DNA of 64,000 nt, taken from the NCBI GenBank assembly GCA_038049695.1, contig CP142461.1:28775001-28839000 (forward strand). The letters run 5' to 3'. The notes under the pieces are model-generated. The model had not been told where the DNA came from. It saw only the letters and a program-made list of their open reading frames with translations, and did no database searches. Both the position numbers and the translations under genes were made by a program. The first letter of the stretch is position 1; each line of letters opens with the position of its first letter. The DNA comes from Cinnamomum chago. Lineage: Eukaryota > Streptophyta > Magnoliopsida > Laurales > Lauraceae. Of this stretch, positions 2,610 to 56,246 are shown in pieces.

Positions 2610-3659
2610 GGATCTCTCAACCCCATTTGCGAAGGGGGCTACAAAAAAGAGAGAAAAATAGAGAACAAGAAAGAGAGAAGGGTAGCCACAATAAGAGAAA
2701 ACCCTAGAACTAGAGGGGAAGGAGGGGAAAGAGAGAAGGAGGCTCTCATATCTTTAAGATCTAGAAGGAAGAGATCATCTAGAGCCATAGATTTCCGTGA
2801 AAGCTCCGGTCTAGGAACTTGAAGAACAAGATATAAATCGGTATTCCTAGATCTCTTCCATTCCATTATTGTTCATCTTCATTCTTAATTAGAAACATGC
2901 TTAGAATCATGCATAAATCGTAGATCTACATTAGGATTGCTATTTTCTTAATAAATCTAGCATTAATTCATCATCATGTTAGGAACATGCTTAGGTTCAT
3001 GCAAGTAGTGTAGATCTGCATTAATTTTGTAATTCTGATTTGCATAACTTAAGCAGATCTTGCATCTACATCATCATCCTCACCATTTAAATCGGGTAGA
3101 TTACACAGAGCTCTCGATAGAAAGGCTGGGCACCACCCTCTGGGCGCCTATCCTTTTTGAGACACGATGGGCGCATTCAACGAACTTTGCTGAAAACTTT
3201 TGCTAAGCAGGGTACATAGGCACCCTGTGGTGCCCAGGTGGGCTTCTCTACTTTTGAGCGCGATTTTTGATCTTTTGAGTTCTTGTTTGATTTGTAATAA
3301 ACTTCGAATTATCATTTTGATCACACATCATATTATAGGATCATTCGAATCATAAAATCATAAAAAAAAATTAAAAAAAGAATCATAAAACATAAAATCA
3401 CTTCTTCTCTTTCCTTACTCTCTAGTATATTAGACAAGAAACCAAAAACAAATCAAAATACAGTCAGAAAATTCAGAAATAATAGGTAGATACTCTAGGT
3501 TTTCGAATTTCGCGCCTAAGTAGGTTAAACCCTAATTAATTAAAAATTAACTACGACATTATAATTAATTAATCTAAAATCATTAAATCATTACAGACCC
3601 TAAAGCAGAGATTCTTAATTAATTTGGACTAAAATTGGATTAAGGGATCACTAAAATTA

Positions 3660-6331
3660 ATTAAGGAATCAAAACTGTCAAGATAGGCTCTGCACCTTTG
3701 GAGCCTAGCTTGCTTGTCCATTGGAAATCATTAATTAAAGACTAAACCTAATTAGCTAAGATCCTAATCAAATCCTAAATAACACTATAACACACTTTTA
3801 ACTAAAAAGACCTAGAACCTTACTCAATTCGAACTAGAATTAACCAAAAAATCACAAAACTCAAAAACCCTAAAATCTGTCAACCTAGACACCACTCCTT
3901 GGGCGTCCATCTTGCCAAAACCACCTGGGCGCCACCCCCTGAGCACCCAGCCTGTCAAATCCACCTGGGCGCCAACCCTTGGGTGCCTAGCCTGCATATC
4001 CCCCTGAAAACCCTTAATTAAAAATCAAACCTAATTAATTGACATTAGACTCAATCCCTAAGATTAATTAGAAATTAATTAGAACATTAGAATTAATTAA
4101 CATAAAAATTACTAAATCATTAAAAACCCTAAAACAGAGAGTCTTGATTAATTCGAACTACAAATCAAATTAAGGAATCACTAGAATTAATTAAGGAACC
4201 CAAACTATTAGGATAGGCTCCTCCACCTTGGAGCCTAGCTTGCTCATCCATTAAAAACCCTTAATCAAGAACTAAATCTGATTAATTAAGACCCTAATCT
4301 CACCCAAATTAATATAATAAAAAAATTTTAAAGTTAAAATACCTAGAACCTTAATCAATTCGGTCTTAAATTGATCTAAACATCACTAAACCGACAAAAC
4401 CTATAAAACAGTCAACCTGGTGCCTAGCCTGTCAAATCCACTTGGGCGCCACCCCCTTGGCGCCCTCAAAAACCCTTAATTAAAGATTAAACTCAATTAA
4501 TTAACTTTCAAACCAATCTCAATTGAACACGAAAAGACATTCCCCATCAAAATACATCAAATCCCATAAAAATTCAATCTTAAATTAATCTAAAAATCAC
4601 CAAATCACCAAAAACCTTGAAACTGTCCACGTAGGCACCACCCCCTGGGCGCCCAGGCTGTTCATTTTCAGAAAACCCCCAATTAACAACTAAACCTAAT
4701 TAATTAACATTCAAACCAATCCCAATTGAGTACTAAAATACACATCACATCAAAATACATCAATTCCCATAAAAATTCAATCTTGAATTAACCTAAAAAA
4801 CACAAAAGCAACCCAAACCTCAAAACAGTTAGCCTGGGTACCACCCCTTGGGCACCTAGCTTGTCTAATCCACTTAGGCACCACTCCATGGGAGCATAGA
4901 CTGCCAATTCTCTTGGAAACCTCAATTAAGGATTAAAGTCAATTAATTAAGATCTAATTCCATCCCAATTGCATACGAATAAACATCCCACGTCCAAATA
5001 CATCCAATCCTATAAAAATTCAATCTAGAATTAACCTAAGGATCACCGAACTGACCCAAACTTCAAAACAATTAGCCTGGGCACCACCCTCTGGGCGCCC
5101 AGCCCATGAACTCCACTTAGGCATCATCCCTTGGGCAACTAGACTACCAATTCCCTTGGAAACCTCAACTGAGGGTTAAACTCAATTAATTAAGATCTAA
5201 TTCCATCCCAATTGAATACGAATAAACATCCCACATCCAAATACATCAAGTCCTATAAAAATTCAATCTTGAATTAACCTAAGAACCATCAAATAGATCG
5301 AAACCTTAAGACAGTCAGCCTGGGCACCACCCTCTAGGCACCCAGCCTATCCATTTTAAGAAACACCCCAATTAACAACTTAGCCTAATCAATTGACACT
5401 CAAACCAATCCCAATCGAGTACAGAGATACACTTCCCACCAAAATACATCCAATCCCATAAAAATCCAATCTAAAGACAACCCTAAAAAACCCGAAACCC
5501 TTAAAAACCAACAAAAAGCAATGTAGACTCCCCCTTGTGGCGTGTAGCCTACATCTCTACCCTAATTCATCAACTCAACTAAAAACCAATCATTGAACAC
5601 CTTACAACTTAAATTAACTAAGACTAGAACGTAAAACAATCCCCGGACCCAAGGAACAGTAATTAAGTCCGATCCGGAATACTTGAAAATCAAAGATAAT
5701 TCATCTGGGCTCCACCCTCTTGGTGCCTATCCCTTCATTTACACTGAAACGTGAATTCTCGACTTTGTTTCAAAACCCGGATCCGAATCATTTTGACATT
5801 TGAACATCAAAGACCAATCTGACACATTAAAATTTATCAATTAAAGCCCACTGGAATTTGGAATATAAGTGAATTATCCCGAAAGTCATATAAAACACAA
5901 ACTGTCAGGATAGGCTCCACCCCTTGGGCTACTACCCTGCTTTAAACACTGAATCGTGATTTTCAATTACGTTTCAAATTTCGATTTGAAATTGACTTTA
6001 ACAAAACATCCCAAAACATTAAAACAATTCACCGAACCAAAACATAGCCCTTAATGCCCATTAGAATTTCGAAAAGAAATCAAAGAGGTTGAAAAATACG
6101 AACTGTCAGGATAGGCTCCACCCCTTGGGCGCCTATCCCTACTTGATATACCAAATTGTGATTCTCAATCTAGTTTCGAATTCCGTATCAAAATTAACAT
6201 AAACAGACTCTCTCAGGACGCATAACCATATTGAAAACTTAATTACCTTGACTTAAACCCCCTAGAATTCTGAATAGAGCCCGAAAAATCATGAAAGTGC
6301 AAAACTGTCAGGATAGGCTCCTCCCATGTGG
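3660..6331. repeat. Degenerate tandem array with GGCGCC-rich cores
   Basis: Units of roughly 200-245 bp repeat with strong divergence. Each has an AT-rich part (AATTAATTAA, AAATCACCAAA) and a GC-rich core such as CTGGGCACCACCCTCTGGGC. Cores fall near 4,627, 4,827, 5,067 and 5,311. A variant core (GTCAGGATAGGCTCCACCCC) sits near 5,903, 6,103 and 6,305. The CACTA element inserted inside one variant core, and the array resumes at 22,786 with another core at about 22,970. Confidence 0.6.
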
Positions 6332-6360
6332 CACTACAAGAATTTGCACTTTTACCGGCG
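6332..6360 (+). repeat. CACTA terminal inverted repeat, left
   Basis: 29-bp terminus beginning CACTACAAG. It is inverted against 22,757-22,785 with 2 mismatches. Confidence 0.85.
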
Positions 6361-7654
6361 TTTTTCTCCGGCGCAATAAGTAAACACCGGGAAAAGTATT
6401 ACTTTTGCCAGCGCAAAAGCCTATTTCGCCGGGAAAAGATAAAGTTTTCCCGGCGACATTTTTTCGCGACAAATGTTAGATTTTTTCTAGCGTTTTTTTA
6501 ATTTTTCGCCGACAAAGGTTAGGTTTTTCCCGACGTTTTTTAATTTTGCCAGCAAATGTTAGATTTTCCCCGGCGATTTTTTCTTTTCGCCGGCAAAGGT
6601 CTATGTTTTATCGTCAATCTGAATAGTTCGTCGGCAAATTTCACCCCGCCAGTTCCGCCAAATATTAGCACCTCTACTTTTCTAATATATTTTCAAAACT
6701 ACTTTTGCCGGCGCATAATTCGCGCTGGCATTGTTATTACTAATTCCCCTACCCGAAACAATCTTCTCAATCGACCCATCTCCAACACGCGCATAGTAAA
6801 CCCTCACATCGTCCTTGCCCTCTGCATCTCCCTCTCTCTCGGTCCCTCGCGCATCTCTCTCTCAACGCACGCAGTGCTAGCCCATCTCGCCTCCCTCCCT
6901 CATTTCTCTCGATCCCTCTGTCTCCCTGCGCAGTTGATAATGGACTGATTCACAAGTCTCTCTCAATCCCTCCGTCTCTCTCACCTTTGCGTCTCGCCCG
7001 TCTCCCAAGTCGGTTCTGGTTTCATAACCAGAACGAAGGATAGAGGAGAAGAGAGTCTGACTTGCTCTCTGAAGGACTGCAGTCCCCGATCGTCGCTGCC
7101 GGAGAAGGACGGGGCTGCCCGCCATCCATACCTTGCCGTTCGTCCCACTAGAGAAGAACGAGGGCCTGGACTGTTGTCGCCTTGATCCTCGCCCCCTTCT
7201 CGAATCCGCAGAGTAAGTCTCTATTCCAAGCCCTTTCCGATCTCATTTCCCCCTTTCCCCTCCTTCGATTTCATCGGATTTTGCTGTTGAGGCATCATGA
7301 CAGATTGGATTATTCTTTCTTCTTAGGCATCAAAATATAATCTGGTTTTTGTACTATTTTTTGATTTGGTTGTCATTAAAAAACATGGTTGTATATGCAA
7401 CAATTCCCTTTACCACCATTCCTCGCAAGTTACTTGCATCAGTACTATATCTACAATCAAAAGTATAGATATAAATAATGGATGTGGTAATTAGAAAGAA
7501 AAGAAGAAAGATGGGTCCATTTATCAATTTCCATAGAAAATGGAAGAGATTCTTACATGATTAAGAACAGGTGTCAGAGATTTTCTTCCAATATTTTCTT
7601 TTTTAAAATTAGTTTTGTGCTTTTAAATCTGGGTAATTTTGTTTTACCTTCCAG

Positions 7655-7887
7655 ACAAGTATACTGATATCCTACTGGGAACCCCTGTAGCCAGAGACAG
7701 GTTATATGCTGGCCCCCATTGCTATTTCACTGCTTACTTAAATGAAACCAGAGCAGAGAAGATTGTAGCAGCCTGTGGCTTGATAGGCATCGTTCTGTTG
7801 TCATCCATGGAAAAAGGGGAAAAGAACAAGAAGAAAAACCAATGTCATGAGAAGAAACCAAAAGGACCAGGAAATAAGGAGACATAA
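7655..7887 (+). pseudogene. Candidate captured exon inside the CACTA element, gene not recognised
   Basis: A pyrimidine-rich tract ending CCTTCCAG (to 7,654) looks like a splice acceptor. The reading frame after it runs 77 codons and contains a well-composed stretch (TDILLGTPVARDRLYAGPHC, then YFTAYLNETRAEKIVAACGL) unlike the low-complexity surroundings, followed by a Lys-rich tail to a stop. Upstream at about 6,830-7,215 is CT-rich, 5'UTR-like sequence ending in a plausible donor (AGAGTAAGTC). I do not recognise the family. It could be part of a captured host gene or of the element's own ancestral gene. Confidence 0.35.
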
Positions 7888-8094
7888 AAAGAAGAAAATC
7901 TAAATAAAATCCATAGTATATGTCACCCTATGCTTTTTAAAGAATGTAACAACCATATATGACAAGGTAACACAAAAAGTATAGAACCACCAAACCAACC
8001 CCGCCATGTCATTTATCCATAGCTTGCATTCAAGAAAGAGTAAGAGGCTTACTGTCCAATAAGTGAACAGCCTGGTATTGTTATCCCTATATAG

Positions 8095-8179
8095 ATCTGG
8101 GCTGACCTGTTATCGCCATAAAGATTACGTGTCAGCATTGGAGCTTGTTAGAGCTTATGGAGGTCACTTTGCTGCGAAG
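8095..8179 (+). pseudogene. Candidate short captured exon inside the CACTA element
   Basis: An AG at 8,093-8,094 and a donor (GAAG/GTATGG) at 8,180 bound an 85-bp stretch with an open frame reading GLTCYRHKDYVSALELVRAY then GGHFAAK. The peptide looks like real protein sequence but I cannot name it. It may belong to the same gene as the candidate exon at 7,655-7,887. Confidence 0.3.
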
Positions 8180-10599
8180 GTATGGTGTTTCAGAGATCTC
8201 TATTTCAATATTTGTTTCATGGAGCATAGAATTGTTTCTCATTGAATTTGTCTTCCAAGCTTTTTGATTGCCACACTGGAGATCTTTTAGATAAATAGTT
8301 GTTGTCTTCTTATTTATTTCGACGTTCTCAATATTTTGTACCCAAAAATACAACAGGATTAGTATGTTTAATCTTTGAATCTTTTTCTCTCAGTTTTTTA
8401 TGATCATGGTAATAGCTTCTGAAAGAGAGGAAAAAAAAGTAAAGAAAAAAGAACTTGAAAGGATCCGTAATTTCCTCTGGGAGGGGCATGAAATTAATAT
8501 TTGGAGGATCTGAGAGAGAATATAGTTCTTCCCAGCCAAGGGATTGCAGAGGTTTGGAAAAGAAAGAAGAATGCCATGGAGAAACATCATCAAAATTAAT
8601 GCAAAACTTAATCATAGCGTATCCTGATTATCCTTTTCATATCACACTACTTAAACCATTTCATCACTTATCCTAGCCTAGTAATGATAGATCATGTACG
8701 GTTGGTTAGGAGATGTGTAGTTTTACTTCTTATCTTAAGTATCTTTGATTATGTCATATTTGCCTGGAGCATGGATACAAGGTGCCAGGTGTGAAGAGCT
8801 GTGGAAAACACAACAAGCTGCCATGTCCATAAAAATCTATAATTTATAGGAAGTTATAAGTATATTTTGTTATACGGCTTTTAGTTTCTAAAGTTACTTT
8901 CGTGAATTAATAAAATTCAATGAAAGAATTCTCTAAATGACATAGGCACATAGCTATACATGTGAAGGCAGTAGGTTGTGTTGGAAGTAGGTGGGCCTCG
9001 TGGATAGGTTTTCAAAACTTTTTGACCCACTTGACTCAGGGATCAACTATCCAGAAGGCTATAACCCAATTCAGGATGCAATCCCTCATTCTCATCAATC
9101 ATGTACAGCAATATAACCTATCTAGAAGACAGAAATCAGCAACTACAAGCAACAAAATAATCTACAAGTAGATAAGCAGATTATACCTTTGGAGCCCGGT
9201 AGTGCTCTAATCGAGGAGAAGACAACCAACTAGAACAAGAATTCTTCTTGAAGCAATTAAAGATCTCCAAGACCTTGTTGTCTTCCACGCTATGACCCTC
9301 TATCAGATCTCTTTTCTCAAGAAGATGTGTGGGATCTCCAAGAGAAAACCCTACTAGAAACTCTAAGGAACTAGAAGGCAACTAAAAGAGAGAGAAGAGA
9401 AGAAAATTGTACAACACTTACACAAATAAAGAGGGTTGGGCGGGCACTCTTATGGCTGGACGTCCAAGGGGTATATTCCCCTTTAAATAGCCCTCAAGTC
9501 TCCTCTCTTATCTCTCTTACTAATTTATATTAGAAGTCACACTTCCACACAAATTAGTAGCTTACTATTACCGCTATTAGAAGTCCCACTTCAAATAGAA
9601 ATAGTAACTTTCTAATTCCTTCCTTTTAGAGTTTAAGTATGAATAGAATCTTTCTAATACATGGGCTAGCGTGGGGACCACTAGGGATTCCTTAGAAAGT
9701 TGGCTTCAACTGGGACACGCGACCCCACATCTTATGTGTAATCCGGGCCCACAGTTAATTGAAAATAACACCACTATATAAATGCAATTGCACTCCAGTC
9801 TTAGGAATAAATTATAATGAAGACCCTAAACTTTCCAATTACCACAAGTAGGCCCCTCTATCATTATCCATGGATCAATTGGAATAAATCTGTCCCATCC
9901 AATCTTAGATCCACATCTTATTATCCTTGAGCCCCAATTAATTACAGTGATCATCAGTACAATCCAATTTGTCACGCCCCCAACCCGGAACTTCGGGGGC
10001 GCGAATGGGATTAAGCAAAAATATATTTTCCTCCCAAGATCCGCATGTGTAAAGACAACACATTCCAACACATTCTTAATATTTTGCGAAAGCTTTCGTG
10101 GCGTTGCGACCCGAAGTCCGTAGTCATCGGGTTCCGTGACACACTTAACCCCTAGCATATAGCTATTATATCAAGAACCATATCAGACTGGAGTAAACCA
10201 TCAAACAAAGTACAGAGCTGACAGTAACAGGATATTACATTCCCATATATGTTCAAGTTACAATTATCAATGTACATTAATTAAGAATTTCAAGAAAAGG
10301 CTAATAGAAGCCATACAACAACAATCTAATAACCACTACCCATATGTGACACAACTCCGATGTCAAGCTCAATGTCTACATGACACAGCCGACAAAACAA
10401 CCTGCAAAGCATGGCTCCACAGCCAACAAAAGCGCTCATCTAGGGACGAAGAAGTCTGGACCTGAGTACCAAAAGTAGTGGGTCAGACACGACGGTCTGG
10501 CAGGTGGATGAAAAGATAATAAATATACTGAAGAATAAAACATATGATAAATCATGCTATTTGATCAAAGGCTGCATATAATTAAACGGGTGCAAAAAT

Positions 10600-10970
10600 C
10601 GAGGATATCTGACAACACATGTATTCGTTTTAAGCACGGGTAAAACAGGAAGATCTAACAAAACATATGTTCATTTACATCATCTATAAAAGCATAGATA
10701 TTTGACAATCGGGTGTTCGTCTAAAACATGTATAAATGCAGAGGTCTGGCAAAACAAACGTTCATTTAAAACGTGTGTAATCATAGAAATCTGGCAAAAC
10801 CAATGTTCATTTGAAACATATGTAAAAGCATGGGTATTTAACCAAATCGGGTATTCATTTAAAACGTGTATAAACATAGAAATCTGGTAAAACAAGTGTC
10901 ATTTAAAACGTATTTAAAAGCACGGATATTTAACAAATCGGGCATTCATTTAAAACATGTGTGTGTACAA
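10600..10970. repeat. About 60-bp tandem repeats within the LTR
   Basis: Repeated phrases of the type 'ATTCATTTAAAACGTGTAT' plus 'AATCTGGCAAAACAA' recur every 55-60 bp, about six times. The partner LTR (about 16,480-16,820) has one extra unit, so the array changed copy number between the two LTRs. Confidence 0.7.
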
Positions 10971-12106
10971 AGAACCGGAAACAATATAACAATAACTGAA
11001 TTTACCTTGGAGAATATTAACACCTGTTTAAATAATAACTTTCATAAAAGAAATGAATCATTTATCGGAAAACAAATAAGCAATATAAAACATGTCAGGT
11101 ATCCAAGGAATCGGGAACTAACAAGATGGCAAGCACATAAAGCTAAGTCCTCTATCACCAAAGTGATAAAAGTAAAACGGGACGTTGGTCTCAGTCACAC
11201 AAGGTGAGGAGATTCAACGAAAACATATATACAATATAAATATACGGGACGGGACCACGATAGCGAACCGGGTATCGGGACGGGACCACGGTAATAAACC
11301 GAGCTTCGGGATCCAAACTGCAGCCGGCGGGACGGGAGGGGATCTCCAAGTCGGTGGATCAAACCGACAAGGTTATCCAAGCTTAGTGATGCCGACTCAT
11401 AGGTCAAATATCGGAAATCAAGACATGTGCAAATAAATCGAGTGTGAGTAAATAAACGGACGGGGCAAGAATGCTCAAAGGTATAACTTTCATTTCATGT
11501 TGGGCAATACATTTCGAGACAAGTAACTGTTACTAGTGTAACTTCAATGCATTCGGGAAAACAAGTCGTGTAATGTAAATCTCGGAAATGAAGAAATACA
11601 ATGAACTATTACAATTTCGGGTAAAATATTGGTTTCAAGATTTATTTAAGGTGAATAGGGGTCCCGTATGTCGATTATAATAATGACTTTGTACTCCTTG
11701 AGTTTGAAGACATTCCGGGCTCCTTATACACTTTACGATTTTCAAAACTTTAAATGAGCTTATAGATAATACTAGACGGTACGTTAAAAATCAAACTATA
11801 AACAGTCCATCCTAAGTATGATGTTAATCCTGAAGCATCGTACAACCTACTCAGTCACCAAAAGGGATAGGATTCGCGATACCCAAGGAAATAGACTTCG
11901 CGTATAGATATAAGGAAGGTATCGCGTTGTCCCATACCATTCAAGATTGAATTAGATTGGATTCTTATGCAACCGAACTAACCATGAAGAACGTCGGCTC
12001 AAGACATCTTCACATATGGTCCAGTGAGTCCAAAAAGGGTAGCCAAAGTCCCACCTAAGCCCATCCAAAAACAGGGTAAAAATCCCTTCCAACAGGGATT
12101 TCCCAG

Positions 12107-12285
12107 TTGGCCCGGTCGACCTGGCCCAGGTCCGGTCGACCCCTTACACAGCAGCCTCGGTCAACCGAGCCCATGGTCGGTCGACCGGGAGTTGTATCTG
12201 AAATGGGTAACAGTAATTTGGTCAGGCTCCCAAGGAGCCTGACCCTGTGTCGCAGGTCGACCGAGCCCCCGCCAGGTCGACCGCG
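12107..12285. repeat. Cluster of GGTCGACC palindromes
   Basis: At least six copies or near-copies of GGTCGACC (a SalI-type palindrome) fall in about 180 bp. They are repeated with one more copy in the right LTR at about 17,967-18,165. The same core appears in the solo LTR at 25,168-25,302. Confidence 0.75.
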
Positions 12286-13154
12286 TACACTGCGGAACAG
12301 AACCCAGGTTCTGTTCTGCAGTGGGTTGGGTCCTTCTCTTCTTCCCTCCTTTCTCTTCCACTTGCACTCTTATACAAACTGAGCTTTTCCTTCCTTCAAC
12401 AAACATCCAAACTAAAATAAAAACTCCCATCAAAACTTCAATGAACATTAAATCCAAACACCTTCTTCTTCACATTCAAACATCAAAGAAAAGAAAACCA
12501 CTATCCATAAGATTCATCTACACTTTAACAACATAATGGATACATTTATCAAGATGTATAATAGAGAAATCAACTCATCAATATGTATTTCAAAAGTAAT
12601 AGAAATCAAGGCAAGGAAAACTATGAAAACACATGTAAAAATCATTAAGAACCAATTGTGTAAAACAAAAGATTTCCATGAAACATGTAAATGTTCAAAA
12701 ACTTATCCATTCATCCACTTGACTTAGGTCCAAGCTAGCCAAACCAAGCCTCTAATCACCTCTTAATCTCAAATCTAAGCTACAAGCAAAAACCCCCAAA
12801 TCAAACCCTAAAATGGGTCAAACAATGAAAGACAAGGAATGGGCTCAAACCAAACTAGGAAATAGAACCTAAGGGAAAACCAAAGCTCAACAATAGAAGA
12901 TGAAAAGAAGTCCTTACCTCTAGGGCCATCAATCAACAAGAAGAAGCTTGAAATAGGGGCTGCCCACCTTAGTTTTGCACCAAAACAGCATCCATGCGAA
13001 GTCGGAGAGATGGGGAAGAAGATGGCAAGGTTGGGTTTCCAAATGGCAAGGATTTCCTCCATGAATGGGGAGGAGAAAACAAGAAGAAAAGGGAGGGGAA
13101 GCTCAGTTGCAGAGCCCCCCCTTTGGCTGCAACGAATGAGTGAGGGGAGAGGGG

Positions 13155-13172
13155 AGAGTCATCTTTTATAAT
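13155..13172 (-). promoter_or_regulatory. Candidate LTR TATA box (minus strand)
   Basis: On the minus strand the sequence reads CCATTATAAAAGATGACTC, a good plant TATA box in the first 530 bp of the LTR. The same site is present in the partner LTR near 19,010. Confidence 0.45.
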
Positions 13173-13684
13173 GGGTGGGTGTGGGCCCCACCACACCAAA
13201 TACTTGCCAAGGGTAAAACTTCAATTTCTGGGCCTCGGCTGCGATCGACGAAGAAGAGGAAAATGTTTCTCATAAAATCTAGTTTTCAAAAAGTATAATT
13301 TTGGCATGGTTCTGGGATCTCAAAATTTGGGTCCAGTTTCAATGTGAAAAGACCGATTTTGCCCTTAGGGCTGGAAAAACTGATTTTCGGAGCTTCGAAT
13401 GGGTACGGAGTGAATACGAAAGTTGTAGAGATTAACAAAATAAGTCAAACGAGGCTAAAACAAGAATTATCGGGAATTTTGAATAGTCTCCCAATCACGC
13501 GCAAAGTCACTAAAAGAATCCCCAAAGGGTCCCACTAATCACAAAGGCACTCAAAACTCCCCAAAACTTTTGAAAAACTATTCTAGCTCACAAACTCAAC
13601 CCAACAAGCACTAATCCCACTAAAAGAAACTAATCCACAATTAAAACAACACTAATCCAGGAAATTAGGGGTCGGGTTCTCACA

Positions 13685-13697
13685 TCCCCCCCTATAA
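13685..13697 (-). promoter_or_regulatory. Polypurine tract
   Basis: The plus strand reads TCCCCCCCTATA; the minus strand is ATAGGGGGGGA directly before the TGTGAGAA LTR start. This is the expected plus-strand primer position. Confidence 0.6.
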
Positions 13698-15761
13698 CAT
13701 TTGGTCCTCCAAATGAACTAAACAAACTAAGAAAAACAAGTGAGGACATTAATCCCACACTCCGGAGACAAAACCTCAAACAACTGCTCCAACTTGGTCC
13801 TCTCATAAGCATTTGGACTCGCTGGATCATCCTCGTTGTAGAACTCTTCGGTCAACTATCAACAGTTGTCAGACATTCCTCCATTGGCTCGAATCTGTTA
13901 CTGCTCTACCAATCTGACTGCTCAAGGAATTTGATATCTCTGACTCCTTCTAAGTGCCACTAAGTCTTTCGCTTCTGGCCACCATGATACAGAAAATTCT
14001 TGAAACAGTTTTGTCGACTTCATCACAATTGTCGAAGCTAGGGTCTCATATCAAATGCACCACCTTCAAGGAGAACTCTTGCTAACTCTAACTCTTTCTG
14101 CTCGGTGCTTTTGATCCATTGCACAACAATCAGTCTCTGACACTATCATGCTTGTCCCTTCACCATTCTTCAACCTTTGAAGCTGCACACTCCCTCTTGC
14201 AACTATTCTGCTGAATTTGTTTCCCCCAACAAGCCCGAAATAATCGATTTCCAGCTCCGTGTATCTGTACGTTGTAATCCGATGTTTCTCATGTCGATAA
14301 AATTCGCAGAATCTTCGTTGTCAGGCGTTCAAGTATAGATCTTTTCTGTTGTCAACTGCTAAAATCTGACTCTCAATGCTTCGTATCTCGCTGGGTCTAC
14401 TTCACCACATGGTTGCACCTGTTGAAAATTTCCAATTAGCTCTTTAACAAAACTCATCAAATTCCGGAAATCTCGAACTCTGAACATCTCCTTGGAGCTT
14501 TACCAACTGAAAAGAAAAATTGTCTTGTCCTTCATCTGCCCTTGGCTTCGAAAAATTGGCGACGCTGAGTATTACCAGATGTCTCTCACTTTAGGCAATG
14601 TCGCCTAGTCCTCGATACACGTCTATCATCTCTGTCAAAGTTGTTGAAATTAGGTCTCCTGCCAATGCACAATCTTCGAGGTGAATGACTTGAAAATCTG
14701 TTACTTCTTCATATGCCAAGCTGATTCAATCAAATGTTTGAACGGTCCTGTGAACACTTCACTCATCTCTATCTGCTCATTGAAAATACAATGCTCACAA
14801 CTCTGTAGGTTTCCGGCTCTGACTAGACCTGCTAACACTTTAACTGTCATGCTACTCCACATGTCCACACTTCGTGAGGTGCGCTTCTGTCAAAGTCATT
14901 CTTCTCTGAATCCTTCAACTGTCATTGTTCATAAGTTATGATTCTCCTGCTCGCATCTGTACTCTGCCCAAACTGATGTTCTACAAGTCGGTAACATCCA
15001 CACAATCTTCTCTATCATGTAATCAGGTAATAATCAATTCCACATATAACTCTCTACACTACTGCTGAAAATTAATTTCCTATGCTTTTAACCATCCACT
15101 GATACATCCTGCTGAGTCGACTCACTATCATAGCTGCAATTGTTAAACCTCCTCAAGCAATTCTCCGTCACAAGTTCATCAATGCTCGAGAAATTTCTAA
15201 CTTTTCACATCTTCTTGGAATGTACCATTGAAAATCACTTCAAACCTCATAAAGTCCACCACTTATTCGGCTTATGGAGTCTTCTGACTTAGGAAAATAA
15301 TCCAAGTTTATCCAAAAATCCACACTTACTTGCCTGACGAATCCTCTGACGGTACACGATCAACTGTAATTGGGTCTCGATATGCTGCTCACATTCCTAG
15401 CTGACAAACAATTGGTCGCAAATTCCTTCTCTAGCTCCATTTGTGACATCGAAAAGCTGAAAATTCTGTCAATGTCCTTTGAGAAACACATGCTAAGTCC
15501 ACAAAACTCTGACTCTCTGGCGCGAGAACAAGGGAAAGGTACTAAATGTGGGTACGGAGACACTAAGTTCTCCCCCACTAGAAAAGAATTTGGTCCTCCA
15601 AATTCCCTAACAACAAGGACAAGAAAAGGAGACAAATATAGTCTCCCCCACTAGAAGAAAAACAGACACGAACTCACAGAAACAATACTAGACAAAAGAA
15701 AACGAGTCCTCACCACACGTCTTAAGGTTCCTAGAGTGTTTTATTTCCTAGAAACCTGCCC

Positions 15762-15773
15762 ACTCTGATACCA
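15762..15773 (-). promoter_or_regulatory. Primer-binding site, initiator tRNA-Met type
   Basis: The minus strand reads TGGTATCAGAGT three bases after the LTR end. The first 11 bases match the complement of the plant initiator tRNA-Met 3' end. This fixes the element's orientation as minus. Confidence 0.75.
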
Positions 15774-15776
15774 GTC

Positions 15777-18700
15777 TGTCACGCCCCCCAACCAGGAACT
15801 TCGGGGGCGCGAATGGGATTAAGCAAAAATATATTTTCCTCCCAAGATCCGCGTGTGTGAAGACAACACATTCCAACACATTCTAAATATTTTGCGGAAG
15901 CTTTCGTGGCATTGCAACCCGGAGTCCGTAGTCATCGGATTTTGCGACGCACTCAACTCCTAGCATATAGTTATTATATCAAGAACCATATCAGACTGGA
16001 GTAAACCATCACAACAAAGTACAGAGCTGACAGTAACAGGATATTACATTCCCATATATGTTCAAGTTACAATTATCAATGTACATTAATTAAGAATCCC
16101 AAGAAAAGGCTAATAGAAGCCATACAACAACAAGCAAATAACCACTACCCATATGTGTTGCAACTCCGATGTCAAGCTCAATGTCTACATGACACAGCCG
16201 ACAAAACAACTTCTAAAGCATGGCTCCAAAACCAACAAAAGCACTCATCTAGGGACGAAGAAGTCTGGACCTGAGTACCAAAAGTAGTGGGTCAGACACG
16301 ACGGTTTGGCAGGTGGATGAAAAGATACTAAATATACTGAAGAATAAAACATATGATAAATCATGCTATTTGATCAAAGGCCGCATATAATTAAACGGGT
16401 GCAAAAATCGAGGATATCTGACAACACATGTATTCGTTTTAAGCACGGGTAAAACAGGAAGATCTAACAAAGCATATGTTCATTTACATCATCTATAAAA
16501 GCATAGATATTTGACAATCGGGTGTTCGTCTAAAACATGTATAAATGCAGAGGTCTGGCAAAACAAACGTTCATTTGAAACTTAGGTAAAAGCATAAGTA
16601 TTCAACAAACCGGGTATTCATTTAAAATGTGTGTAATCATAGAAATCTGGCAAAACCAATGTTCATTTGAAACATATGTAAAAGCATGGGTATTTAACCA
16701 AATCGGGTATTCATTTAAAACGTGTATAAACATAGAAATCTGGTAAAACAAGTGTCATTTAAAACGTATTTAAAAGCACGGATATTTAACAAATCGGGCA
16801 TTCATTTAAAACATGTGTGTGTACAAGGAACAGGAAACAATATAACAATAACTGAATTTACCTTGGAGAATATTAACACCTGTTTAAATAATAACTTTCA
16901 TAAAAGAAATGAATCACTTATCGAAAAACAAACAAGCAATATAAAACATGTCAGGTATCCAAGGAATCGGGAACTAACAAGATGGCAAGCACATAAAGCT
17001 AAGTCCTCTATCACCAAAGTGATAAAAGTAAAACGGGACGTTGGTCTCAGTCACACAAGGTGAGGAGATTCAACGAAAACATATATACAATATAAATATA
17101 CGGGACGGGACCACGATAGCGAACCGGGTATTGGGACGGGACCACGGTAATAAACCGGGCATCGGGATTCAAACTGCAGCCGGCGGGACGGGAGGGGATC
17201 TCCAAGTCGGTGGATCAAACCGACAAGGTTATCCAAGCTTAGTGATGCCGACTCATAGGTCAAATATCGGAAATCAAGACATGTGCAAATAAATCGAGTG
17301 CGAGTAAATAAACGGACGGGGCAAGAATGCTCAAAGGTATAACTTTCATTTCATGTTAGGCAATACATTTCGGGACAAGTAACTGTTACTAGTGTAACTT
17401 CAATGCATTCGGGAAAACAAGTCGTGTAATGTAAATCTCGGAAATGAAGAAATACAATGAACTATTACAATTTCGGGTAAAATATTGGTTTCAAGATTTA
17501 TTTAAGGTGAATAGGGGTCCCGTATGTCGATTATAATAATGACTTGGTACTCCTTGAGTTTGAAGTAATTCCGGGCTCCTTATACACTTTACGATTTTCA
17601 AAACTTTAAATGAGCTTATAGATAATACTAGACGGTACGATAAAAATCAAACTATAAACAGTCCATCCTAAGTATGATGTTAATCCTGAAGCATCGTACA
17701 ACCTACTCAGTCACCAAAAGGGATAGGATTCGCGATACCCAAGGAAATAGACTTCGCGTATAGATATAAGGAAGGTATCGCGTTGTCCCATACCATTCAA
17801 GATTGAATTAGATTGGATTCTTATGCAACCGAACTAACCGTGAAGAACGTCGGCTCAAGACATCCTCACATATGGTCCAGTGAGTTCAAAAAGGGTAGCC
17901 AAAGTCCCACCTAAGCCCATCCAAAAACAGGGTAAAAATTCCTTCCAGCAGGGATTTCCCAGTTGGCCCGGTCGACCTGGCCCAGGTCCGGTCGACCCCT
18001 TACACAGCAGCCCCGGTCGACCTGGTCCCTGTGTGCCCGGTCGACCGAGCCCATGGTCGGTCGACCGGGAGTTGTATCTGAAATGGGTAACAATAGTTTG
18101 GTCAGGCTCCCTGGGAGCCTGACCCTGTGTCGCAGGTCGACCGAGCCCCCGCCAGGTCGACCGCGTACACTGCGGAACAGAACCCAGGTTCTGTTCTGCA
18201 GTGGGTTGGGTCCTTCTCTTCTTCCCTCCTTTCTCTTCCACTTGCACACTTATACAAACTGAGCTTTTCCTTCCTTCAACAAACATCCAAACTAAAATAA
18301 AAACTCCTATCAAAACTTCAATGAACATTAAATCCAAACACCTTCTTCTTCACATTCAAACATCAAAGTAAAGAAAACCACTATCCATGAGATTCATCTA
18401 CACTTTAACAACATAATGGATACATTTATCAAGATGTATTTCAAAAGTAATAGAAATCAAGGCAAGGAAAACTATGAAAACACATGTAAAAATCATTAAG
18501 AACCAATAGTGTAAAACAAAAGATTTCCATGAAACATGTAAATGTTCAAAAACTTATCCATTCATCCACTTGACTTAGGTCCAAACTAGCCAAACCAAGC
18601 CTCTAATCACCTCTTAATCTCAAATCCAAGCTACAAGCAAAAACCCCCAAATCAAACCCTAAAATGGGTCAAACAATGAAAGACAAGGAATGGGCTCAAA

Positions 18701-19535
18701 CCAAACTAGGAAATAGAACCTAAGGGAAAACCAAAGCTCAACAATAGAAGATGAAAAGAAGTCCTTACCTCTAGGGCCATCAATCAACAAGAAGAAGCTT
18801 GAAATAGGGGCTGCCCACCTTAGTTTTGCACAAAAATAACATCCATGCGAAGTGGGAGAGATGGAGAAGAAGATGGCATGGTTGGGTTTCCAAATGGCAA
18901 GGATCTCCTCCATGAATGGGGAGGAGAAAACAAGAAGAAAAGGGAGGGGAAGCTCAGTTGCAGAGCCCCCCCTTTGGCTGCAACGAATGAGTGAGGGGAG
19001 AGGGGAGAGTCATCTTTTATAATGGGTGGGTGTGGGCCCCACCACACCAAAAACTTGCCAAGGGTAAAACATCAATTTCTGGGCCTCGGCTGCGATCGAC
19101 GAAGAAGAGGAAAATGTTTCTCATAAAATCTAGTTTTCAAAAAGTATAATTTTGGCATGGTTCTGGGATCTCAAAATTTGGGTCCAGATTCAATGTGAAA
19201 AGACCAATTTTTCCCTTAGGGCTGGAAAAACTGATTTTCGGAGCTTCGAATGGATACAGAGTGAACACGAAAGTTGTAGAGATTAACAAAATAAGTCAAA
19301 CGAGGCTAAAACAAGAATTATCAGAAATTTCGAATAATCTCCCAATCACGCGCAAAATCACTAAAAGAACCCCCAAAGGGTCCCACTAATCACAAAGGCA
19401 CTCAAAACTCCCCAAAACTAGTGAAAAACCATTTTATCTCACAAACTCAACCCAACAAGCACTAATCCCACTAAAAGAAACTAATCCACAATTAAAACAA
19501 CACTAATCCAGGAAATTAGGAGTCGAGTTCTCACA
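15777..19535 (-). repeat. LARD-like element, 5' LTR in minus orientation (3,759 bp)
   Basis: Partner of 9,970-13,684, starting TGTCACGCCCCCC and ending CTCACA. Divergence by eye is a few percent and uneven: dense near 15,790-15,960, very low near 17,000-17,500. It is followed by polypurine-tract and interior sequence rather than by host flank. Confidence 0.85.
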
Positions 19536-19682
19536 TCCTCCCCCACACCCCCCCCCCCCCCCCCTTAGAACATTTGGTCCTCCAAATGAACTAAACAAAC
19601 TAAGAAAAACAAGTGAGGACATTAATCCCACACTCCGAAGATAAAACCTCAAACACTTCTCCAACTTGGTCCTTTCTCATAG
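19536..19682 (-). repeat. Truncated second copy of the LARD interior
   Basis: From AACATTTGGTCCTCC on, about 110 bp match 13,694-13,800 nearly base for base, then the match stops at about 19,680. A run of about 19 C (19,547-19,565) replaces the short C-run of the first polypurine tract. This piece shows a third LTR-interior junction, so a tandem or recombined element was later deleted on its right. Confidence 0.75.
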
Positions 19683-20084
19683 TGATCAAAGTGCTGCAAC
19701 CTTGTCAGATGAGATGCTCAGTCTCATCACTGGTTGTGAAGATATTTTAAGTATAAGATTTGTGACACATATCTCCCGTATGTGGAACTCATCCATATAC
19801 ATATATCACATCTAATATACTGATGGGACCCGGTTCATCTCTTGAACCATTATATCATATGTATTGGTCATGTGCATTAAGTAATAAATCATCATTCATC
19901 TCAAGAAAGGAAAGCATGATTATATTGATAAATAAATAAATTAATCAGTTTATTACATCAACTGATGGATTGAGACCATACAATCTAACAAGTTGTTGAT
20001 ATAGAAGGGCCAATAAAGTGATGGGCACAAAACTAGCATTAAACTAACTTCAAAGTGTTACCAAAATTAAATTGCCTTGTAATG

Positions 20085-20452
20085 CCTCGCTTGGGAAAGA
20101 AAGTCCAGATCGAGTTACGATTGGAATGGCATTGGAAAGAAAGTCTAGCTGTAGTGTACAGTGTTCATGACAATGGCTATTTGGAGCTGGCAGGGTGTTT
20201 CCGGAAAGGAAGGTGGATGACCCACTACACAGATGCTAAAAAGGTAGATAGCTTGAAGGTTGGGCAGCATGTCTGCTATGGGTATGCAAGGCATGTGAAA
20301 TGGAGAAGGTGAGAGCATTCAAGGTGGGAGACAAGGTGAGGATTAGAGGGGGATTGGTGACACCTAGGTGGGGATGGGGTATGGAGACACCTGCAAGCAG
20401 GGGTGAGGTGGTAGGTGTGGATGCGAATGGGAAGCTAAGGATCAGATTCTGA
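20085..20452 (+). pseudogene. KEG: Captured fragment of KEEP ON GOING (KEG) E3 ubiquitin ligase
   Basis: Two open segments match the C-terminal repeats of plant KEG, the RING-kinase-ankyrin-repeat E3 ligase that targets ABI5 in abscisic-acid signalling. The first (to about 20,289) contains KESLAVVYSVHDNGYLELAG and then CFRKGRWMTHYTDAKKV, typical of one KEG repeat. The second (20,300-20,452) reads FKVGDKVRIRGGLVTPRWGW followed by GMETPASRG and DANGKLRIRF, typical of the last KEG repeat. The segments are not adjacent in KEG and sit in different frames here, with a stop after the second. Neither kinase, RING nor ankyrin parts are present, so this cannot be a working ligase. It lies well inside the CACTA termini, which points to capture by the transposon. 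Confidence 0.85.
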
Positions 20453-22240
20453 TGAAATCTGGTTGGATCTTGCTTTCTATGGAGTGGGATTTTGGTGGGC
20501 TTATTTCCTATGGGTTCTTCTCCTTCTATAAACACTGATTCTCTTCTTCTTCTTTCTCTTGCTATTGAAAATTCTCCTCCTTGTTTTTTTCTTCTAAACT
20601 TCTTCTAGCAATTAGCAATGGCTATACCTGCTGTCCAACTTCAATGTCAGCGTGTATGATTAACATGGGTTAAACACCCAGCTGTCCCAAGCATTTATTG
20701 TATTAATAATAAGACTGAGTCATGACTTTTCAGATTTGTATATAGATTTTTTTTTTGTTTGGGCTTTGGTGACTCCACTCATAGGGTGACTCAACTCATG
20801 CCAATTTTCAGAACACGGAGCTGACAGACAACAAGTTTGACTCCTACCACACAATGAAGACTGAAATAAGAGAAAATGTGGAAAAACATATGCTTTATTG
20901 TTTGTTGTTACTCTTTAGGTTTGAATGTTGAAATCATTTGTGACTTAGGAATTAGGATGTAATTTATTATTCATTTTGATTTCACGTTTTCTGTTTGTTT
21001 ATAATGTGATAGTTTGTTTTTTGTTGTTATTATTTATTATGTCACATGCTGGTTTCTTTATGGAGAAAATGTGGAAAAACATATGCTTTATTTATTAGTT
21101 TTCTGTTTTTTCTTTTCTTTCACATGCTGGTTTTTTGTGGTTTTGTTATGGCTTTGCTATAGAGTGAGATGGAAGATGGCTATGGGGGCTGTTTCATGTT
21201 GCTATATAGTGAGAATTGTTAGAAACTTGAACAAAACATACATAATCCTTGATTCATTTTCCATTAAACGGCAGAGGTCATTTGATGGCTTAGCAACTTA
21301 TCATAATTTTTGTTCTTGTTCTTGTTCTTGAACAGGAAGAGACTCATGGGTCTTGTTGTACACAAGTAATGTTAGAAACAGAGATCTGAGGCCAATAAAT
21401 TTTTTATTTTGGGGGCATATATATATATCATGTGATAGATCTTCAATGACATCAATCATAAATGATGGCCTCATTACTTTCAAAACCAAGATCCAAGTTT
21501 ATTGCTCTAAACCTTGTGTCCTTCTCTTATATTCCTCCTAAGACTTTTAATTTCATTCTGTGATGTATTTTTTCTATGGACTTGATTTAATGGAATCTCT
21601 CTGTTCTAGGGAAGAATTACATTGTTTTCATAATTGATTTCAGTTGCTTTGTTTATATATAGTTTCACTAAAAGTTGTGCATATGACATTCTTAATCATA
21701 TGTTAATCTTGCTATTTTTTTATGCAGATTGAATGAAAATTGAAAAACAAATTTTGTTAAAAGAGTCCATGCAGCTAGGATGCAGCCAACATGAAGGCCA
21801 AGTATACAGAGTAACACATTGCTATATGTTAAAATGAGATGCATGAAATTTTTTAAAACAATGGTACAGGTGTTGGAATGGTGCAACAAGGAAATGATCA
21901 TATATGAATATGTAAATTTTCATTAACATTTGAAGGTTGGTACGGAGTAGAATGTTACCAGTTGTTTTAATTTTGTAATGGTAATGGTAAAGTGCTTTCA
22001 ATGTTGAAAGGATGTTTGAGTATTAATATGAAGTGGAATGAATTTTCTTGTTTCATTTTTTGATGAATTTGGAATGGAAATGGATGTTGGGTGTAGAAGA
22101 TTTGGTCTTGGATAATGGAATTTGCAATTTAAATTTATTCATGTGACACAGGTTGGAAGTTGTAATGAACTGATGTATATACAAGAAAAGAAAATTAAAA
22201 ATCAAATAAATAAATAAATAAATTATATTTAAAAAAAATT
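20453..22240. other. CACTA interior, no gene seen
   Basis: AT-rich, intron-like or UTR-like sequence. One phrase (AGAAAATGTGGAAAAACATATGC) occurs at about 20,872 and 21,063, a local duplication of about 190 bp spacing. No transposase similarity was found. Confidence 0.5.
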
Positions 22241-22756
22241 ATTCCTGGCGAGATAAAACACTGGCAAAAAAATTTTAAAAAAGAATTTTCGTAAATTGTA
22301 AATCTTTTCTAGGCGCAAAATTAACGCCAGCAAAAGTTTTTCTAAATTTATTTTTAAAAAATAAACTTCTTTTCCTGGCAAAAAAAAACGCCAGCAAAAG
22401 TTTTTCTCTATTTATTATTGAAAAATAAACACCTTTTCCTGGTGCAAAAAAACCCTAGCAAATGTTTTTTGAAGATTTATTTGTGAAAAAATAAACTTCT
22501 TTTCCCGGTGCAAAAAAATGCCAACAAAAGTTTTTTCTAAATTTATTATTGAAAAAATAAACATCTTTGCCAGGCGAATAAAACCTCTACCGGCGAAATA
22601 AAACGCCGGCAATGTATACTTTTTCTCGATGCTACCTATTTTTCGCAGGCAATGGGTATTACCGGTGTACTTTTCCCCATGGGTTGCCAGCGCAAGAGAA
22701 ATCGCTAGTAATAGTTTTTCTCGGCATTTTCTGGACCTTTACCGGCGCTTATTTAG

Positions 22757-22785
22757 CGCCGGCAAAAGTGCAAATTGTTGTAGTG
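22757..22785 (-). repeat. CACTA terminal inverted repeat, right
   Basis: Ends TTGTTGTAGTG. It is the inverted partner of 6,332-6,360 and is preceded by GCCGGC-type subterminal repeats. Confidence 0.85.
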
Positions 22786-51649: not shown

Positions 51650-53120
51650 GTATCCTTTTGAGCTTCTTTTAACTGTTGATTTTGGGGGGTTTTCTTCCTT
51701 TTTTTTTCTGTTTCCTGCGTCTGGGTCCTGGTGGATGGGAGTGTTTTGATCTGTGGTGTTTCCTTTTGGATTGGTTGGATCTGGCTGGGTTCTTGATCTG
51801 TATGTTCTTGCTCTTATACATGGGTTTTGGGTCTTTTTCCTATTTGTATTGTTAATCTTCTTGAAATTGTTCAGAGACTGAGGAAAATAGCTTCTGATCA
51901 ATGCCTTGTTGATTGCATTTATCATTTTTTTAATGGATGGGGCCTTGTTTTTTAGCAATAATCTGGTCTCTTTAGTGGCAAGATTATGTTTTGATTCTTG
52001 AATCAAATTTATTTTTCCTTGTCGGAAGCTTCTGGTTTTATTTTTTTTTCTGGGCGGATGTTGATTTATGCCAATCGTCTATGTGGAAAGATAGCGTTTT
52101 GATCATATGGATGTGATCCTATTGTTGCAAAAGTCTGATTTTTCCTAGTGGGTTTGGGTTTTCTTCCCTGTTTGTTGCGGGAAGATGGGAATTTGATCTC
52201 AATGAGTGTGATTTTCAGCTGCTGTTCTTCTTTTGCTGTAAAAATCTGTTTTTTTTTTTATTAGGTGGGTTTTGGTTAGTGTGTTAATTTTTTTATATAG
52301 GAAAGTTACATCTTGATATTGATGGATACAAGTATCCTTTATCAATCCTTCTCTTGGCCTAAAGTCTTGGTTTTTCTAGTTAGATTTTGGGTTTTTGTAT
52401 CTGCCTTTGCGGTTATTGTAGAAGGATTGGACGTTGATCTGGATTGGTATGACTTTATGTTCTTAAATCCTTCTGTTGTTGCAAGTTTAGCTCAGGGAGT
52501 AATGGAAATAGCAATGGATCATGGCCATGGGCTTCATCTGTTTCTTGAATTTTTTTGTAGGACCTTTTTATTCCTTGGCAGATTAATTTTTCATCACTTT
52601 ATGTTGCTGAAGGAGTGAATTATGATCTGTATGGTAGTCTTTTTGTTTTTGTTCTTCTTATCCAATCAATGGGCAGTTTGGATCTTGATTTCTATGGTAA
52701 CTTGTGTTTTATGCAGAGAATCTTCCTTCTTCTTTTTTTTTTTTGTTATTTCTCCTGTTCTTTGGTCGTATTTTCTTTGAATGTTGTTATTTTGCTCTTG
52801 GTATGTGATTCCAATATTTGGTTGTTTTACAGGTAAAACTGCTTCGCTCTCTAATCTTCTCATTTCCCATCTTTTCTGGCATATATTCCTATTTGTGTCA
52901 TTCAAAAAATGGTACTGTGAAGATTTCATCGCAGTGGTTTTTTGGACAAAAAATGATATGCCTTTATGGTACTTTTCTTTTTGGTGATGGTGTTTATTTA
53001 TGCAATTGCAGAAATTGGCTACAAGTCTGACATAGAAATATTGTTAATGGAAAAGCATACCTGGTTGCTGAGTAATGGGTTTACATAGATCTATCCTATA
53101 AGTCTGACTTCTGTTAATTA

Positions 53121-54094
53121 ATGGCTTCGAAGTCTAGTTCTAGGGCTTGTTCAGATCACCAACAAAAAAATTCCATTGCTGAAACAGTAGAGCCAAACTC
53201 TCACAGACCTTCACCCTTGCAGATTTCGAAGCCCACCAATTCCACATCTCTTAGACTGAGAAAATTGCCAAAATCCCCATTTCCAGCTGTGCCTAGGCAG
53301 ATAACAAGAGAGACTTCAGATTACCAGTCACCTGAAAAGGCTATTGCAAAAACTGCATATTGTTCGGATCCTAGTAATCTGAATTGCTCATCAGGAGATA
53401 ATAAAAAGCCATTCCAGGAAGCGGATGGTGTAGAACAGCATCAAATAAATGATGTCTCAAAACCTTCTGAAGGTGGTGACAACCATGAGAAGAAAACATC
53501 TGAACACAACACTCTAAAGGATAGCTCTGCATCTGCTAAAATAAATGATGTGACTAGCAGTCTTGCTAAGACCAGTGGAAGTGCAAAAATCAGCGACCGA
53601 GCAGATCTTGTCGAAAGTGGAAAGAGCAGCATATGCCGTGGTAGTACAAGCAGTGATGTCAGCGATGAGAGCACATGTAGTAGCATAAGCAGCAGTATCA
53701 ACAAGCCCCACAAGGCGAACGACTCAAGATGGGAAGCTATCCAAGCAGTCAGGGCAAGAGATGGGGCCCTGGGACTGAGCCATTTCAGGCTCCTGAAGAA
53801 ACTGGGCTGTGGAGATATTGGGAGCGTGTATCTGTCAGAGCTAAGTGGGACCAAGAGTTATTTTGCTATGAAGGTTATGGACAAAGGGTTGCTGGCTAGT
53901 CGTAAGAAGCTGCTTAGAGCTCAGACAGAAAGAGAGATATTACAATCTTTGGACCATCCGTTTCTTCCAACGCTGTATACACACTTTGAGACAGAAAAGT
54001 TCTCATGTTTGGTGATGGAGTTCTGCCCAGGAGGGGACCTGCACACCCTTAGGCAGAGGCAGCCAGGGAAGCATTTTACTGAACAAGCGGTGAA
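53121..54094 (+). CDS. D6PKL: D6 PROTEIN KINASE-like Ser/Thr kinase (AGCVIII), exon 1
   Basis: First coding exon of a 616-residue kinase (spliced to 59,894-60,770). AGCVIII kinases of the D6PK/PVPK-1 group are plasma-membrane-associated Ser/Thr kinases that phosphorylate PIN auxin exporters; the role here is inferred from family. Residues 1-220 are a Ser-rich, low-complexity tail ([16 protein letters not shown]). The kinase domain starts about residue 222: [20 protein letters not shown] is the Gly-rich loop, Lys251 in FAMKVMDK the ATP-binding lysine, and [19 protein letters not shown] the hinge side. The start was chosen because MASKSS.. is typical of the group and the next Met would cut the tail. 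The donor AA/GTATGC at 54,095 is in phase 2 after EQAV, a usual intron site in this family. Length fits the family (about 500-610). Confidence 0.92.
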
Positions 54095-54567
54095 GTATGC
54101 TCTTGTATCTTTTTTCATCTATTATCTGGTTTCAGAACTTGACATTATGTCTTCCATGGATTTGCACTTTACAAGGGATTATATGCAATACTTAATTGAA
54201 AGATATTGACCTTTATAGAGTGGACAATGCCCAACGTCTTCCCTATCAGATGATTTTAGGTGTCCAATGAAACTGGCCAATAGTACCAAATGTTCAACGT
54301 TTAATGGTAACTGCGTATTTAGAACCATCCAATGGTGGAGGTTTTGGTGCATAGCATATCTTGCAGTCCACTGTGTTAATGATTTGGATGACCATAATGT
54401 GGTTGCACATATACAGTTTGTTGAGTTAATTAATTGCTTGGTCATGCATTGGTAAAAGAAAAAAGGAAAATACACTGGTAGCGTTCTCTTTGAGTACATG
54501 TGCTGGTTTGTTGTCTTGTTTAGCAGTCTGTAAAGATCTGCTTAAGAGATCTATCAGGATGTCCTCT

Positions 54568-54571
54568 CTCG

Positions 54572-54611
<40 letters not shown>
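54568..54611. repeat. (TC)n-(TA)n microsatellite
   Basis: CTCTCTCTCTCTC followed by about 15 TA units, inside the kinase intron. Confidence 0.9.
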
Positions 54612-54618
<7 letters not shown>

Positions 54619-56218
54619 AATTTTCTTCATTACCAAGGCTGCTATTATTGTGATGCTTTTCTATCTTTCTGAGATATTTGATGCACAGATGCAGCAATCT
54701 GGTTCATTTTTACTGTTCATTTTCTTCAAGAGATGATGTTGATGCTTGGCTATTTTTTGTATGTTGAAGTCATTGACACTTATTATATCACCGTGCAAGA
54801 TGAAAAAATGTGTTAGTTTTGTCTTACTCATCACATTGATATGATATTTAATTGAAGAATATGTTGATTTTCATGCCCTCTCTTCATAGTAACTTTTGGG
54901 TGCTGATCATTTATGATTTGAGAAGAGAAGCATTTAAGCATGCAATTGGATGGTGGGTTCTGCTGATGATTTGATTTGTTCTGTACTGAAGGAATGTATT
55001 AAATGGGCATTATTTTTGCATCTTACCTATATTACATTTTGTGACTTTTGCTTGGTATAGACTCGTGACCTTTTAGCCACTCCTCAGGACCTGGGGTCTA
55101 TGATATTGGACCTTTTTCAAGCACATGTCAATATACGTCTTTTCTTGAAAGTTATATATATACAATGTGTGAGTACAATTGGATATACGGAGTTGAGTGC
55201 TGACAGCAAAGAAGCTATGAGATAAAAACTGCATTTAGCCTAGGTGCAAATGCTAAGATAGATGTGTAGGATACTATAAAGAATATGTACAGGTGGCTCC
55301 AACCAAAGAAAATATAAGCAACGTTTGTGATCATTTGGCCATGTGCCTAGAAGACTGGAAATACTCTGTATAACGACCGGAAGGGTTGCAACTTGCTAGC
55401 ACTATATACTAGGGGAAGGGAGAGACTGATAAAGGAATGGAAAAAAAGTTGTTGGAAACAACCTGCTCTGTTGTGGGATGACAAAGTACATTGCCCTAAA
55501 AAGGGAGAAGTCAGAAGGCAGGACCAGGAAAGTGGCCTCATGTTGATGGAATAAGGCTTTAATGGCGATGAAATCATTTATTTATTGGCCTAACAGATGT
55601 TCTCCAAGCCTCCGCATCAACCATTCTTCCTGTTTGACCAATTCACATATGGTCTTGAACAGAGTCATGGTCCAAATCGTAATTGCTTACTAACTAGGAT
55701 CAAACTATTTCATTATAATAATGTACAGTTCTATTAGCTTGAATCTTGATAATTTGAAGTTGATTTGGTGGATTTTTTTGGTTTAAATCAAACGGATACA
55801 ATTTAATTTGAAACACTCACAGACCCATTTGTATGATATATGAGTACCACCTCCAAATGCTTATTTTGATAAGATTCTATATAATTTCAAATTGCCCATA
55901 TATATGAGGTATTTCTTCTTCTTTTTTTCCTATAAAGAATAAACTACTCTAATTCAAGTACTCAACCAACAAACCACATGGGATAATCAAAGTTATATTG
56001 AACAAAGGAATCAAGTTCAGCTATAGAACACTGCAGCCTGAGCTGTGAATCGAGGGAAACAAAAGTGAGCTGAATGAATCTACTCAAACGAGTTGGGAAG
56101 CTACAAAAGGTGCAGAGTTGTGAGTCGTGATGTGTGAACTTTAATAGATATAATCGAACTACAGACCATGTAACCATGGCTCCAGTCTTCTTGTCTTATG
56201 AAGGTTTTTTCCTTTTAT

Positions 56219-56246
<28 letters not shown>
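56219..56246. repeat. (TC)n microsatellite
   Basis: About 14 uninterrupted TC units inside the kinase intron. Confidence 0.9.

Follow-up and report, generated by a model that had tools for sequence, protein, structure and literature searches.

A CACTA element of Cinnamomum chago with rearranged pieces of the KEG gene, and its place among other KEG-bearing elements of the same genome

CACTA elements that carry host DNA have been described before. Pack-TYPE or Pack-CACTA elements combine CACTA ends with host fragments from several loci, were found without a transposase and occur in cargo-bearing copies (PMC8903248). Tgm-Express1 of soybean is a CACTA element that bears several unrelated host gene fragments with their introns retained (PMC1947982), and on wheat chromosome 3B one captured gene was reported from two CACTA families, which was read as recent DNA exchange (PMC4290129). 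The window studied here, a stretch of 64,000 nucleotides (C11:28775001-28839000 of a 1.06-Gb assembly with 14 contigs), holds an element that resembles Pack-CACTA and Tgm-Express1 in the features named above; all comparisons were made within this genome. Its genes and elements are of plant type. We consider it very probable that the element is a non-autonomous, gene-carrying CACTA element (Pack-CACTA) with captured KEG DNA, that such elements have spread and that the KEG pieces are passive cargo.

The CACTA element of the window, designated family A, spans 6332-22785 on the plus strand and contains nested insertions. Its termini, CACTACAAGAATTTGCACTTTTACCGGCG and CACTACAACAATTTGCACTTTTGCCGGCG, are alike at 27 of 29 bp and, by comparison of both ends, form a left inverted repeat at 6332-6360 (plus strand) and a right one at 22757-22785 (minus strand). 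Repeat analysis revealed a subterminal array of ~65-bp units at 22220-22585 (plus strand). When the element is removed and its two flanks are joined, they match uninterrupted sequence at other places: 12 of the 40 matches listed span query positions 14-240 or more, at 71-84% identity. Three empty counterparts that align over the junction, one with a 2-bp gap there, show the insertion point; they represent further copies of the target repeat and not an orthologous site of another plant. Since the flanks are contiguous in these copies, 6332-22785 represents a single insertion that later received others. The target duplication is imperfect, with TGG on each side and one extra A next to the right end. 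The target repeat itself is a diverged tandem repeat at 3527-6205 with the core GGATAGGCTCC..GGCGCCTATCC. A six-frame Pfam search of 6332-9970 and 19538-22785 detected no transposase, nor did any scanned stretch of the other KEG-bearing CACTA elements contain one. Terminal inverted repeats, together with target duplications in copies, rule out a Helitron.

Nested LTR retrotransposon sequence, recognized as such by sequence reading, occupies 8980-19991 and splits a KEG intron piece. It is missing from a family A copy on C9, which aligns from 8979 straight to 19992; the overlap of 5 bp there fits a target duplication. A second LTR element is nested within the first at 9970-19681 (minus strand) and consists of LTRs at 9970-13684 and 15777-19535 followed by a truncated internal stretch; the LTR pair is 97.4% identical (K2P 0.027), and a PBS-like site and the LTR boundaries were identified by sequence reading. 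Further cargo is a neprosin (DUF239) gene fragment at 7639-7815 (minus strand; Pfam PF03080, E 6e-18, in two stretches) with in-frame stops, for which a PDB sequence search gave no match. Outside the element, the window contains an AGC-kinase host gene at 53118-60770, with two open stretches ~5.7 kb apart, which we take to be D6PK-like.

KEG is an E3 ligase with RING, kinase and ankyrin domains and a full repeat array, and regulates abscisic-acid signalling. The two segments that the initial annotation had assigned to its C-terminal repeats are indeed present. In a tblastn search of the window with a provisional Arabidopsis KEG sequence, their scores were 100 (E 2.6e-25) and 72 bits (E 4e-16), compared to 29.6 bits for the best of 200 shuffled queries; identity was 67% in 46 residues (20136-20273) for one and 72% in 58 residues (20276-20449) for the other. 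Independently of this query, 20270-20452 matches Pfam SH3_15 (E 3.9e-9, 37.1 bits with a cut-off of 24), as does the C-terminus of the provisional KEG sequence itself (E 1e-54). The first segment alone had no Pfam match, and PDB sequence searches with the KEG segment returned no match.

Alignment to the parent gene (L009, i.e. C10 from 59598001, serves as reference for KEG coordinates) resolved three KEG pieces, all on the plus strand and in parental order and orientation, at 93-96% identity. An intron piece of the same capture, which the initial annotation had overlooked, lies at 8716-8979 (L009 5862-6120, 93%) and 19992-20092 (L009 6116-6216, 95%). It is followed by 14 bp of filler at 20093-20106, resembling sequence ~40 bp downstream (direct repeat), an exon piece with a 1-bp deletion at 20107-20277 (L009 7376-7547, 94.8%), and a second exon piece with the last repeat at 20275-20449 (L009 8245-8419, 96.0%). 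Between the three pieces 1159 bp and then 697 bp of the parent are missing, and the 697-bp deletion junction has a 3-bp microhomology, GCT, at 20275-20277. The exon pieces were therefore rightly called non-adjacent, being 697 bp apart in the parent, while the start of KEG homology proposed at 20085 has to be corrected, because the exon match begins at 20107 and is preceded by filler. Non-KEG sequence at 20450-20633 (plus strand) is joined to KEG at the identical base in other fetched copies; in a search with it, 23 of 32 matches start within the first 7 query bases, with adjacency to KEG checked at the fetched loci. The inclusion of a KEG intron stretch demonstrates capture as DNA and excludes a processed pseudogene or retroposition. 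The exon pieces sit in different reading frames, which rejects a coding chimera of both repeats. One SH3_15 repeat is the sole KEG domain detected in the scanned parts, so that the element is not a KEG E3 ligase gene.

A genome search with window positions 20050-20460 yielded 40 matches (the best 40 of 53 candidates were scored). The parental exon is located at C10:59605331-59606476 in an uninterrupted frame of 407 aa, which agrees with the C-terminus of the provisional KEG sequence at 70% of 381 residues. It is the only unbroken one among 88 matches to this C-terminus; the runner-up spans just 123 residues, and none of the other 87 comes near the parent. The same locus is also the best match of both exon pieces. 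The window's intron piece falls at L009 5862-6216, in the intron after an exon at ~5653-5847, and both exon pieces are within the last KEG exon. Neither CACTACAA nor TTGTAGTG occurs in the 20 kb around the parent, and therefore no capture footprint is visible there. A KEG intron also contains a high-copy repeat of ~245 bp (L009:4375-4620), with at least 39 further occurrences in the scored matches; it dominated a search with KEG intron 2900-5480 (40 of 889 candidates scored). Our literature search found no title on KEG capture, which does not prove its absence from print; the terms 'CACTA' and 'keep on going' occur together in one paper, by its title a rice E3-ligase study (PMC8924586).

The KEG cargo is not confined to the window. 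The window element has a sister in the C9 copy of family A, C9:50236768-50245256, to which it is 91% identical in the left part, 96% in the KEG part and 89% in the right part; this copy has eroded ends, no target duplication, flanks of its own and another nested insert, and the two family A copies measure 8.5 and 16.5 kb. With up to 3 mismatches allowed, the junction 7547|8245 left by the 697-bp deletion was found at 19 places, and a reversed-pattern control at none. The window and the C9 copy are the same at this pattern, and the other 17 places have one common difference from both. Ten of these 17 loci were fetched and compared (L011 with L012, and L014-L022): all ten contain KEG 7431-7547|8245-8419 (one ends at 8418, one at 8401), nine have 6437-6626 in whole or in part, and three also 5484-6100.

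Three CACTA elements of 10.5-11.3 kb, read end to end, constitute family B: C11:14763661-14774270 with the target duplication ACT/ACT, C4:88431355-88442606 with ATA/ATA, and C5:2801274-2811791 with TCT/TCT. Families A and B are alike in their outermost ~25 bp. Outside the termini, the C11 family B element shares with the window element a KEG block of 489 bp at 94% and otherwise only two stretches of subterminal repeat, one of 80 bp (81%) and one of 45 bp (80%). This C11 element also carries an RB_A fragment (retinoblastoma-related; L016:1629-1805) and, on the opposite strand, an RRM fragment. A young CACTA family, D, is represented by C9:62102619-62113481 (L035+L032+L036) and has the KEG junctions 6100|6437 and 6626|7431 in common with family B. 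Its KEG sequence breaks off at 7501 and is followed by a topoisomerase I fragment, with CPSF_A and Tyr-deacylase fragments upstream, the former presumably DDB1-like. The D copies on C9 and C6 differ by 0 mismatches and 1 gap in 3.97 kb, and the C4 copy shows 99.3% identity across 3.07 kb; this near-identity points to recent movement of the family. The C6 copy has the target duplication AAT/AAT, a clean duplication is missing from the C9 copy, and no ends were detected for the C4 copy where they had been predicted. Two further loci, L025 and L026, include KEG 8152-8419 and 7984-8406 without the 697-bp deletion. In both, the foreign sequence known from the window follows and the right end is of a third type; no left end was located at either locus. 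KEG boundary 8419 is joined to the identical foreign base in the window, family B and L025, and the KEG match of L026 ends at 8406, not 8419. Altogether, perfect 3-bp target duplications flank 4 of the 7 copies with both ends read (three of family B and the C6 copy of family D), and the window element, C9 family A and C9 family D have no perfect one. The other flanks of the C9 family A copy and the duplications of families B and D show that elements were mobilised with their cargo as a unit. The earlier proposals that the segments lie inside CACTA termini and that a host KEG piece was captured and rearranged have thus held up; the KEG gene is the best match, and the CACTA termini are in place.

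At least 59 loci besides the parent, the window among them, carry pieces of this KEG region. The number derives from pooled DNA matches clustered at 15 kb, which gave 60 clusters, one being the parent and one the window, and it is a lower bound, as the two pooled searches scored the best 40 of 53 and the best 40 of 130 candidates; location in CACTA elements is shown for a minority of the 59. A single control, an exon of the AGC-kinase gene of the window, gave 19 matches, none of which, apart from itself, exceeded 87% identity. A 1.5-kb KEG stretch without deletions, at 93% identity and outside the parent, resides at C1:87850742-87852237 and is perhaps close to the founding capture. This locus, C9:26188405 and a group with the junction 5592-5781|5842-6156 are not tied to the same founder by junctions.

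A single founder of the KEG block is favoured by base-exact junctions in common, among them one to foreign DNA. We propose that ~2.9 kb of genomic KEG sequence (L009 ~5484-8419) entered a CACTA element as DNA. This block would have comprised most of the last exon together with introns and parts of upstream exons; internal deletions, marked by microhomology and filler, would then have shortened it and left the two non-adjacent exon pieces, and the KEG-carrying elements would have multiplied by transposition, with the transposase presumably supplied by other CACTA elements. For Pack-CACTA elements it was proposed that neighbouring insertions are re-mobilised as one element (PMC8903248), and such a route would fit the capture of KEG. 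The block appears now in CACTA elements with largely differing subterminal sequence, and our own reading of these differing ends suggests that the cargo was passed between CACTA families. Alternatively, subterminal sequence may have diverged rapidly; families A and B are alike in their outer ~25 bp and in 80 bp of subterminal sequence at 81%, and fast divergence of the ends therefore stays viable. Separate captures of KEG by the individual CACTA families, with the common breakpoints reflecting hotspots, are unlikely: the breakpoints partly differ between families, and one group and some single loci have no common junction at all, but 8419|20450, with its foreign DNA, and 7547|8245 recur base-exactly in elements with differing ends.

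The KEG pieces are most likely passive cargo. A 50-codon open reading frame with a stop and one KEG repeat was found at 20300-20452 (plus strand) by a scan of copies. Its start was present in 12 of 14 sources, and the same search did not find it in L025 and L026; the 50 codons are open in 10 of the 12 and broken in C9 and L022. Among the 10 open copies, 10 nonsynonymous and 5 synonymous changes from the majority occur, with a neutral expectation of 73-77% nonsynonymous. Private changes in the two KEG pieces are distributed over the codon positions as 8:6:11 (12 copies) and 8:3:10 (16 copies), respectively. When counted per copy, differences from the parent are mostly at third positions (56 of 84 and 57 of 85); because many are common to all copies, we read this excess as changes on the branch from KEG to the founder. 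The changes among copies fit neutrality, and nothing in them indicates selection.

The cargo could also act as RNA, with small RNAs from the copies lowering or methylating KEG and thereby altering the abscisic-acid response. Compared to the last KEG exon, the window has 106 exact 21-mers and 88 exact 24-mers in common, with a longest exact run of 58 nt, and matching small RNAs against KEG are therefore possible. Such a role agrees with one unbroken KEG C-terminus and at least 59 loci with KEG pieces, and it is compatible with the preferred explanation in all but passivity. However, the 50-codon stretch is without sign of selection and the KEG exon is still unbroken, and we rate a role as RNA as quite unlikely. 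A link of KEG to abscisic-acid signalling is documented (PMC5385374). The farthest-reaching scenario, in which the block was captured once, exchanged among CACTA families with differing subterminal ends and is still spreading in one young family, with small RNAs from its many near-exact copies tuning the single KEG gene and thereby abscisic-acid sensitivity, appears decidedly improbable to us.

An origin from a KEG pseudogene, produced by segmental duplication or retroposition and only later surrounded by inserting CACTA elements, is very improbable. Longer KEG stretches at some loci, such as the one on C1, would suit this origin, but the intron speaks against retroposition, the cargo lies between target duplications at 4 other loci, and the empty counterparts imply that the contents of the window element arrived with it or later, which contradicts segmental duplication for the window. 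The initial annotation had envisaged a small repeat-only protein as one possible product. That the open reading frame encodes a useful KEG-repeat microprotein is barely credible: it is open in 10 of the 12 copies with a start, but its ratio of 10 nonsynonymous to 5 synonymous changes is near the neutral share of 0.73-0.77.

Taken as a kind, the element is already known as Pack-CACTA, and what is notable is the scale and the legible history. It differs from the Pack-TYPE and Pack-CACTA elements described before (PMC8903248) in that pieces of one gene region recur at at least 59 loci and that the elements measure 8.5 and 16.5 kb in family A and 10.5-11.3 kb in the three family B copies read end to end. 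Tgm-Express1 differs in its length of 5.7 kb, its position in a gene intron and its demonstrated transcripts (PMC1947982). The captured block has a genealogy that can be read, as base-exact junctions make it possible to follow the cargo from one CACTA element to another, where as a rule such a transfer can merely be suspected, and with one unbroken KEG copy found, an effect of small RNAs on KEG would be easy to test. As on wheat chromosome 3B, one captured gene is found in more than one CACTA family, but in comparison the KEG block has base-exact common deletion junctions, more loci and an identified parent (PMC4290129).
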